This document shows positions 21,471 through 23,392 of a DNA stretch of 64,000 bases, piece by piece. The notes under the pieces are model-generated. The model worked only from the letters and a program-made list of their open reading frames with translations. It ran no database searches and was not told where the DNA came from. Every line of letters begins with the position of its first letter. Position 1 is the stretch's first letter. Made by a program: the position numbers and the translations under genes. The stretch is from contig PSQN01000016.1 in assembly GCA_002989075.1 (NCBI GenBank), positions 1,965,346-2,029,345 on the forward strand. The letters run 5' to 3'. The stretch comes from Arthonia radiata (Eukaryota; Ascomycota; Arthoniomycetes; Arthoniales; Arthoniaceae).

Positions 21471-22886
21471 GACCTGTAGAAAGTTTCGCAGGTCACTACC
21501 GTCTCCCTGAAAGACGCTGCACCACTCGTGCGCACTACGACTGCCCCATCCCAGTCTTTCGGTATGAGACTCCCATTCGCCATGGTCATAGTCCCGGAGA
21601 CTGCAGCATCTCACGAGAGTGTCTTTGGTTGTGGTCGTTTTGGGCGGAGGGAGGAGTTCCATAGTTTCAATCACCATGCGAATATGTATCGATGCAACGA
21701 AAGCTCCGAAAGAGAGTTCAGTTCAGTTCAGCAGTACGGGCAAAGCTAGACAAGATTGAGATGGGAACTGAGGAGCAAACCTGGGTTTGTGGTTCTGGAC
21801 GGGAATGATGCGCACTGATGGGAAGCTGCAGAACGTCGTCCGCAAGGGACACCGGCATGGGTCATGGCAACCAATTTTTTCTGCAGCACGAAGCGGTTCG
21901 TTCGCTGGCCTTGGTGAGTCAAGCCGTCTCAGTACGGTCATGTGTTCGATTGTGCGTCAAGCCAAGATTCATCGAAACGAGGACTTCGTATCTGTATAAT
22001 CGTGAAAGCTGGCAGCCAAGCCAATTCGACACCCATTATATTCATCAGATGCCTTAGCAAGCGGTAAAAGGTCTATACAGTTGGGCGAGACATGCCTGGC
22101 GTTATTTCTTAGCATGTAATCTTGCTTCGATTTATTTGCTTGCAATTGGAAGATAATTTTGTTCGCGTTTGCTACTTGCAAAGAACATGCTGATACTCAT
22201 GGCACCCAATCCATTTGCTTACATGATCGGCTGATCTCCAAATTCCAGACGTAGCGGATCGCAAGAAATGTGGTCTGCCTGGCTCGCGCGTCCTGAGGCC
22301 AGTCACCTCAAAAAGAGCTACAAGACAGCCGAGTGAAGATCGGAAGGTGGAGACTTTGTTTGTGATTGTATTCCTGCGCCCCCGCGCTGTCCCTTGCTAT
22401 TCCAGTGCGAAGACTGCTTATACCCAGTAATGTTCCGCCTGACGTGTCTTTCCGCGATAGACATTTGCTTCCAATCGCGTCATCTTTGGGAGGCAGAGGA
22501 AACATGAGAGCCATCGACAATGGGAGGGTCTCCAGACTCTGAGTATTTAGCCCCTCCCCGTGATCTTTTGCAAGGTCGTCGAGAACGCATAACCTACCAT
22601 GCAGGCATCAAAGCTTATGCTGAAGCAAGGCGTGTTATGATATGTTCACGCTCGCACCCGCGTCCCAATCAGGCAAATCCTGAGATGCCACTTTCATCGC
22701 ATCTCAACAGGGCGCCCTCGCGTTTGCGTGTGATATCAGCCAAGCCCTCAGGAACCCAGGCAGCCACGTCACGTGAGGGCTGCCGCCTTGGTTGTCAGAG
22801 CAACGTCACCGTGCACGGACCACCTGCGAAGATATATTACAGCGCGATTCTTCCTCCTCCTCTTCTTCTTTCTTTTTTCTCTCCAT
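21471..22886. other. Intergenic, about 1.4 kb, ending in U6 upstream sequence
   Basis: No protein gene is recognised. GATATATTA at 22831-22839 and a long pyrimidine run at 22850-22884 precede the U6 gene. Confidence 0.4.
22831..22839 (+). promoter_or_regulatory. TATA-like element upstream of U6
   Basis: GATATATTA about 50 bp before the likely U6 start. Pol III U6 TATA boxes are usually nearer (about 30 bp), so the assignment is tentative. Confidence 0.35.
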
Positions 22887-22948
22887 GTTGCTCCGGCTTC
22901 ATTTGGTCAATTTGAAACGATACAGAGAAGATTAGCATGGCCCCTGCA

Positions 22949-23004
22949 GTATGTTCCTCATTCCCTCCCCATCACGCTTCAAACTCTTACTGACCTTCTC
23001 TCAG
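22949..23004 (+). other. Spliceosomal intron inside U6 snRNA
   Basis: 56 nt with donor GTATGT, branch CTGAC at 22990-22994 and acceptor CTCAG. GCTTCAAACTC at 22976-22986 resembles the Pol III B box. Confidence 0.9.
22976..22986 (+). promoter_or_regulatory. Possible intronic B box of the U6 gene
   Basis: GCTTCAAACTC against the consensus GGTTCRANNCC: a good match at the core positions TTC, A and C. Schizosaccharomyces U6 introns are known to carry B-box-like sequence. Confidence 0.55.
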
Positions 23005-23040
23005 CTAAGGATGACACGCTATACAAAGAGATGCCAAACG

Positions 23041-23049
23041 TTTTTTTTT
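23041..23049 (+). terminator. Pol III oligo-T terminator of U6
   Basis: Nine T residues immediately after the U6 3' end on the sense strand. Confidence 0.85.
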
Positions 23050-23392
23050 CTTTGCGATGCTGGCTTCGAGCTGGCTTGTGAGGAAGAACTCAACCATGAT
23101 CTCTTCCTTGCCGTTGTGCGACTCGACGCGAGCTCATGGTGTGCTGCTGATGTGCTTTGACGCGTTACGAGGGTAGCCAGCAAGCTTCATCTGTGTAGCT
23201 GCTCGGCGATGATAGTCGATGGCAAGAGCGTGATGGAATCCCAACAAATTCGTCATTGGGAAGATCTGTGACGCGACTGCGCCAAGTCGACAAAGTCTGA
23301 CCCATGAACGTAGATCTCAAGCTGCTAGTCCGCTGTTCAATTATCCATAATGGCGACAATGCCCTTGCTGGCGCAATCATCTCCGCCTTGCC
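23050..23392. other. Intergenic, 343 bp
   Basis: Spacer between the U6 terminator and the stop of the ENT gene on the other strand. Nothing else is recognised. Confidence 0.4.

Follow-up and report, generated by a model that had tools for sequence, protein, structure and literature searches.

Analysis of a stretch of 64,000 nucleotides (hereafter the window) revealed, at positions 22887–23049 of the plus strand, a locus whose sequence supports its assignment as a U6 snRNA gene with an intron of the spliceosomal type in the internal stem-loop. The features of the locus and its flanks, in window coordinates, are as follows.

22817–22825, plus strand: GGACCACCT box upstream of the TATA-like stretch; putative function
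22831–22840, plus strand: TATA-like stretch GATATATTAC, recognized by sequence; putative function
22887–22948, plus strand: U6 exon 1, with the 5′ region, ACAGAGA box, AGC triad and 5′ strand of the internal stem-loop; placed by Rfam RF00026 and alignment of five spliced copies, 5′ end approximate
22949–23004, plus strand: 56-nt GT-AG intron with 5′ splice site GTATGT and 3′ splice site CAG
22986–22994, plus strand: branch site CTTACTGAC; likely branch A at 22993, the 12th base from the intron 3′ end
23005–23049, plus strand: U6 exon 2, with the 3′ strand of the internal stem-loop, the 3′ tail and T9 at 23041–23049
23059–23075, plus strand: inverted repeat GCTGGCT-TCG-AGCTGGC, part of a 3′ element shared by snRNA genes
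23080–23086, plus strand: GAGGAAG box, part of the same shared 3′ element

Exon 1 ends in CCCCTGCA at 22948 and exon 2 opens with CTAAGGATGACACGC at 23005; across both boundaries the gene reads CCCCTGCA / 56 nt (GTATGT...CTTACTGAC...CTCAG) / CTAAGGATGAC, and the branch site contains TACTGAC. A preliminary description of this DNA had proposed that a 56-nt GTATGT...CTGAC...CTCAG insertion splits the U6 core, and this was borne out by the sequence and by the match to the Rfam U6 model. In the genomic, unspliced form, positions 22887–22988 scored 54.5 bits with RF00026, above the gathering score of 44, and the alignment was pushed into the intron past the consensus CCCCUGC, where the exon stops. 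Splicing in silico gave 98 nt plus T9, alignable with the other four spliced copies found in the genome, in agreement with the further proposal that removal of the insertion restores a U6 of normal length. The spliced form contains the ACAGAGA box, the AGC triad, the internal stem-loop (as a predicted fold) and the 3′ oligo-T. The intron had also been described as interrupting the internal stem-loop. This holds for the stem-loop as a whole; in the predicted fold, however, the interruption is in the loop, flanked by CCU and AGG once the exons are joined, and not in a strand of the stem.

The intron has GT-AG ends and a branch motif at the distance from the acceptor known in fungi. When the letters of the 56-mer were shuffled 2,000,000 times, GTRNGT...CTRAC...YAG with a spacing that we had set ourselves never arose, and GT..AG arose in 866 cases. 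Over the whole window, the count of stretches with intron grammar was 9, compared with a mean of 3.0 (range 0–7) in 20 Markov controls, which lends weak support. A group I or group II self-splicing intron was considered and rejected: such introns are hundreds of nucleotides long with a catalytic core, whereas this one has 56 nt with GT-AG ends and a branch site.

U6 copies in the assembly

The window is part of an assembly of 33.5 Mb in 16 contigs, which by the impression its sequence gives would be that of a filamentous ascomycete. The Rfam search identified three U6 loci, on contigs C2 (the window copy), C12 and C14, and a pattern derived from exon 2 added two more, on C11 and C13. All five contain introns. 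The C2, C12 and C14 copies have one each, at a common site, and the C11 copy has three, one of them at that site. The C13 copy (L008; 1780419–1780680, minus strand) has two introns elsewhere, at GAGAA^GGTCAGC and CTAAG^GATGAC, and is uninterrupted at the window site, where it reads CCCCTGCACTAAG; exact removal of the window intron gives an uninterrupted site like the one in this paralogue. The intron sites of the C11 and C13 copies are in turn uninterrupted in other U6 copies. Such uninterrupted paralogues, like the gene anatomy and the splice signals, are read directly from the DNA. The C13 copy has changes at certain core bases that are otherwise constant, and it shows no evident 5′ stem; judged from these changes, it may be a variant or a decaying copy.

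The core exons of the C2, C12, C14 and C11 copies are identical in 70 of 70 bases, whereas the interiors of their introns at the common site have diverged: the introns share 37–41 identities over 56–61 aligned columns, with GT, TTACTGAC and AG kept in all four. Conservation of exons and splice signals combined with drift of intron interiors is the pattern expected of a spliced gene.

A search for a second, intronless U6 had been named beforehand as a check. None was found: the five loci all bear introns, and a 29-base pattern spanning the spliced junction, with up to three mismatches allowed, had no matches in the 33.5-Mb assembly. Other U6 core and exon patterns returned from the assembly the same intron-bearing copies, one relic (C13:295488) and unrelated matches. 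Near matches to the U6 core at C2:2211880, C5:715779, C15:111875 and C2:2280679 proved on reading to be no further U6; seven matches of one repeated sequence, TTAAAAAGATACAGAGAAG, were left outside this reading. A 27-base U6 core pattern found no stretches in wider collections of genome contigs and viral contigs.

The relic (L039, minus strand of C13) has a U6-like GGTCAAATTGAAACGATACAGAGA followed by an unrelated inverted repeat at the place of the internal stem-loop. Further on it has AAAGAGA...AAACGTTTTT at about U6 spacing, without the AGC triad after it. By its sequence it would be either the remnant of a U6 gene or a U6 copy that has been rewritten.

The U6 stretch that bears the window intron is presumably also the one that forms U4/U6 stem II, and the partner strand of this stem bears an intron in two of three U4 copies. 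Predicted U4/U6 duplexes gave no discrimination between the two forms, unspliced U6 being no weaker than spliced U6.

Introns in other snRNA genes and the shared 3′ element

Genome searches of the Rfam type gave three matches for U4, seven for U2, one for U5 and three for U1, the last all below the U1 gathering score; a second U1 copy adjoins one of them (L043). In all, 24 snRNA loci were recognized: five U6, three U5, seven U2, three U4 and six U1. At least one GT-AG intron is present in 5/5 U6, 3/3 U5, 3/7 U2, 2/3 U4 and 3/6 U1 loci.

Both intron-bearing U4 copies (L030, L031) are interrupted at GTGCAAG^GGCATT. In U2, L035 and L036 have an intron within the branch-point recognition stretch, at GTGTA^GTATC. 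U2 L037 has one intron at TCTC^TTTGCC, another at GATCAA^GTGTAG and possibly a third close to the 3′ end. In U5, L042 is interrupted at GGAAC^TCACC, and L065 and L066, which were found through the pattern of the 3′ element described below, have an intron within loop 1, at GCCT^TTTACC. Among U1 copies, L044 has an intron at ATACTTACCTTG^TGGAAG, and L058 has one in the end that pairs with the 5′ splice site (ATACTT^ACCTTG) and a second near the 3′ end; L071 shares the latter, and its first insertion begins with GA. The insertion in L045 begins with CT and the 5′ end of this copy is changed; from its sequence it seems decayed. Uninterrupted paralogues were found for U4 (L029), U2 (L032, L033, L034) and U1 (both L043 copies). 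A U5 pattern across loop 1, used on the assembly with up to three mismatches, matched only L042, in which the intron lies elsewhere, and the patterns used found neither an intronless U5 nor an intronless U6 in the assembly.

Three further observations concern individual loci. U2 L034 (C1:4375233) has GTAGTGTC in the branch-point recognition stretch in place of the GTAGTATC of other U2 copies. U2 L038 (C10:1128657) has an intact 3′ half and no recognizable branch-point recognition stretch. U1 L045 (C11:975284, minus strand) stands back to back with U5 L066 (C11:976113, plus strand), less than 1 kb apart.

We catalogued 23 snRNA insertions, leaving the possible third intron of L037 out of the count. 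GT-AG ends are present in 21 of them, and 19 of these 21 have CTRAY with the A 11–17 nt from the 3′ end. CTRAY is lacking from two GT-AG introns, both in U6 beside the ACAGAGA box; the two insertions with other ends are the U1 ones that begin with GA (L071) and CT (L045). When the interiors were compared pairwise (253 pairs), only the U4 pair L030/L031, with a score of 31, exceeded the best score (28) among 253 shuffled comparisons.

Downstream of 23 of the 24 loci we found a common 3′ element, made up of a T-rich stretch that includes CTTTG, then a short hairpin, then a GAGGAAG-like box (23041–23086 of the window; L001, L002, L005, L008, L029–L038, L042, L043 twice, L044, L058, L065, L066 and L071). 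The remaining locus is U1 L045, which seems decayed and in which GAGGAAG is absent within the 150 bases examined. For 22 of the 24 loci the element was aligned with hand-set patterns; one U1 copy of L043 was added later and has the element. GAGGAAG is exact in 17 of these 22 and one base off in the other five, and CTTTG is exact in 17 of 22. The pattern of the element had 30 matches in the genome and none when reversed. On reading, 14 of the 30 were U1, U2, U5 or U6 loci, including U5 L065 and L066 and U1 L058 and L071, which were uncovered in this way; nine were RNA-like stretches without an Rfam match and seven looked like chance matches.

The hairpin arms vary between genes and yet remain complementary: in 18 hairpins all 90 of the 90 inner pairs are standard, whereas 10,000 re-dealings gave 53 on average and 74 at most. 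This excess is partly built in, since two of 20 distinct hairpins, with stems of fewer than five pairs, were dropped and the stems were picked from predicted folds. Against letter shuffles z was below −1 in 17 of 21 hairpins and the other four were near chance. In U6 the hairpin lies beyond the T-run, the expected stop signal of Pol III, and a search for a B box in or after the gene gave nothing above chance.

The nine Rfam-negative loci with the 3′ element (L046, L053, L055, L056, L057, L059, L061, L062 and L070) had no Rfam match at E 0.5 and may be undescribed small RNAs. L057, L059 and L061 also have a AATTTTTGGA stretch, which we take to resemble the Sm site of snRNAs.

On the upstream side, boxes similar to GGACCACCT are found before the C12, C14 and C11 U6 genes too, and less exactly before others. 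A GCACRGRCCACC-like box stands shortly before a TATA-like stretch in four of the five U6 genes (22817–22840 of the window, L001, L002 and L005) and before two of the three U5 genes (L042 and L065, one base off in the latter); in sequence it appears to be like a proximal snRNA promoter element.

Probable removal and possible origin of the introns

We consider it very probable that the window gene is a real U6 gene from which existing spliceosomes remove the loop intron, and that the spliceosome is inherited in working form. In the primary U6 transcript the loop of the internal stem-loop would be interrupted by a short intron of U2 type, which spliceosomes already in the cell would remove, and the contiguous stem-loop would exist only in the joined RNA. 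The spliceosome would then be passed on as a working machine. Since introns are present in all U6 and all U5 loci found, both RNAs are most likely made by splicing, and the spliceosome seems to need itself to be rebuilt. Transcription, splicing and expression of these genes, and inheritance of the spliceosome, are what we infer from the sequences. If such self-dependence is strict, the spliceosome would be a molecular machine handed down in working order, which is rare.

One alternative, which we regard as unlikely although worth weighing, is that the window copy is a weakly expressed or decaying paralogue and that most U6 comes from the intron-bearing copies on C12 and C14. Its predicted fold has a weaker 5′ stem and lacks the 5′ hairpin formed by the C12 copy, and its 5′ and 3′ ends (the latter AGATGCCAAACG) are unlike those common to C12 and C14. 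Against this, its 70-nt core is the same as that of C12, C14 and C11, and it retains an intact T-run and 3′ element as well as intact splice signals. Splicing of U6 would not be obligatory if an intronless gene were missing from the assembly, which may be incomplete and has stretches given as N, or were too diverged for our patterns. This we consider improbable, as neither the junction pattern nor the core and exon patterns disclosed such a copy.

The insertions might also belong to a single family of mobile introns, similar to introner-like elements, with snRNA genes hit by chance. The large number of insertions and the variety of their sites within one genome would fit this account; the interiors of the 23 snRNA insertions, compared among themselves, are not alike except for the U4 pair L030/L031, and we think the account quite improbable. 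Least credible of all would be that the intron is kept for a part of the promoter, such as the B box that fission yeast U6 introns carry. That precedent is what speaks for a B box here. Across the five U6 loci the closest matches to a B box reach 7–9 of 11 letters, which is the level of shuffles, with none standing out in the introns, and intron interiors at the window site are not conserved. An intron of the fission yeast type with an internal B box was accordingly rejected, no match to the consensus rising above shuffles in or after the gene.

The reading preferred here, a U6 gene spliced by existing spliceosomes, can be extended to the origin of the introns. It is possible, and we propose it tentatively, that spliceosomal introns invaded every snRNA class with a preference for contacts with the substrate or partner RNAs, leaving a machine made only by itself. 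That last part is based on the searches for U5 and U6, which turned up no intronless copy of either. The preferred contacts would be the 5′ end of U1, the branch-point recognition stretch of U2, loop 1 of U5, the ACAGAGA region and internal stem-loop of U6, and U4/U6 stem II. Such a preference is what would be expected if excised introns reverse-splice into the surrounding snRNAs of an active spliceosome and the products are then copied back into genes; the idea that reverse splicing into the catalytic centre gives rise to snRNA introns is an old proposal.

As contact stretches we took the first 11 nt of U1, the first 45 of U2, 23 paired nt of U4, loop 1 of U5, and U6 from the ACAGAGA box to the end of the internal stem-loop. 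Of 14 distinct sites, nine are inside these stretches compared with 3.3 expected (P about 0.0006 by simulation), a figure to be read with the stretches and their lengths having been chosen after the sites were known and with the sites depending on what selection lets survive. The 14 include the possible third intron of U2 L037 and count as a single site a pair of U6 sites separated by one base; five are outside the contact stretches. The bias is a lead for the reverse-splicing proposal and not a proof of it. Paralogues that differ in their intron sites provide natural pairs of occupied and uninterrupted sites, which makes the proposal testable by position.

A practical consequence is that searches blind to introns miss such snRNA genes: of three U5 loci only one came up to the U5 gathering score, of six U1 copies not one came up to that of U1, and the U6 model left two of five U6 loci unlisted.

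Comparison with known systems

The U6 intron of Schizosaccharomyces, for which Tani and Ohshima (1989) and Potashkin and Frendewey (1989) are cited, is reportedly of the mRNA type and removed by the spliceosome. The genes described here are similar in having an mRNA-type intron within U6; they differ in that each of the five loci has between one and three introns, spread over several sites, and in that no B box was found within the intron. For fungal U6 more widely, Canzler, Stadler and Hertel (2016) are said to have described short canonical introns at several positions, gained more than once, and the likeness is in such short canonical introns at several positions.

In the basidiomycete Rhodotorula hasegawae, introns are reportedly present in U1, U2, U5 and U6, in conserved stretches. 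We know of no U4 intron in that species. The likeness is in several intron-bearing snRNA types within one fungus and in the conserved stretches affected, whereas the difference, apart from its being a basidiomycete, is in the U4 introns present here.

In the parts of the literature available to us, fungal U6 introns are treated as known, with Canzler 2016 cited (PMC9518982, PMC5832005). A U6 copy of Colletotrichum has extra regions whose nature is not explained in the passages concerned (PMC6908651), and the passages of PMC5209885, PMC10512326 and PMC6108506 that we consulted make no mention of U6 introns. Introns in ascomycete U1, U2, U4 or U5 did not appear among the titles and opening parts of abstracts listed, a set mostly outside the subscription literature. 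According to the part of the source consulted, frequent interruption by an intron is known in no small structured RNA except U3 and U6, and fungal U3 snoRNA introns have GT-AG ends, an RCTRAC branch motif and a short distance from branch to acceptor, with U3 paralogues with and without introns in fungi (PMC5832005). These published U3 introns (PMC5832005) share their grammar with the snRNA introns described here; U3 itself is not part of the spliceosome. Introns in fungal U6 are already known, and the unexpected part is the presence of intron-bearing U1, U2, U4 and U5 copies in the same genome.
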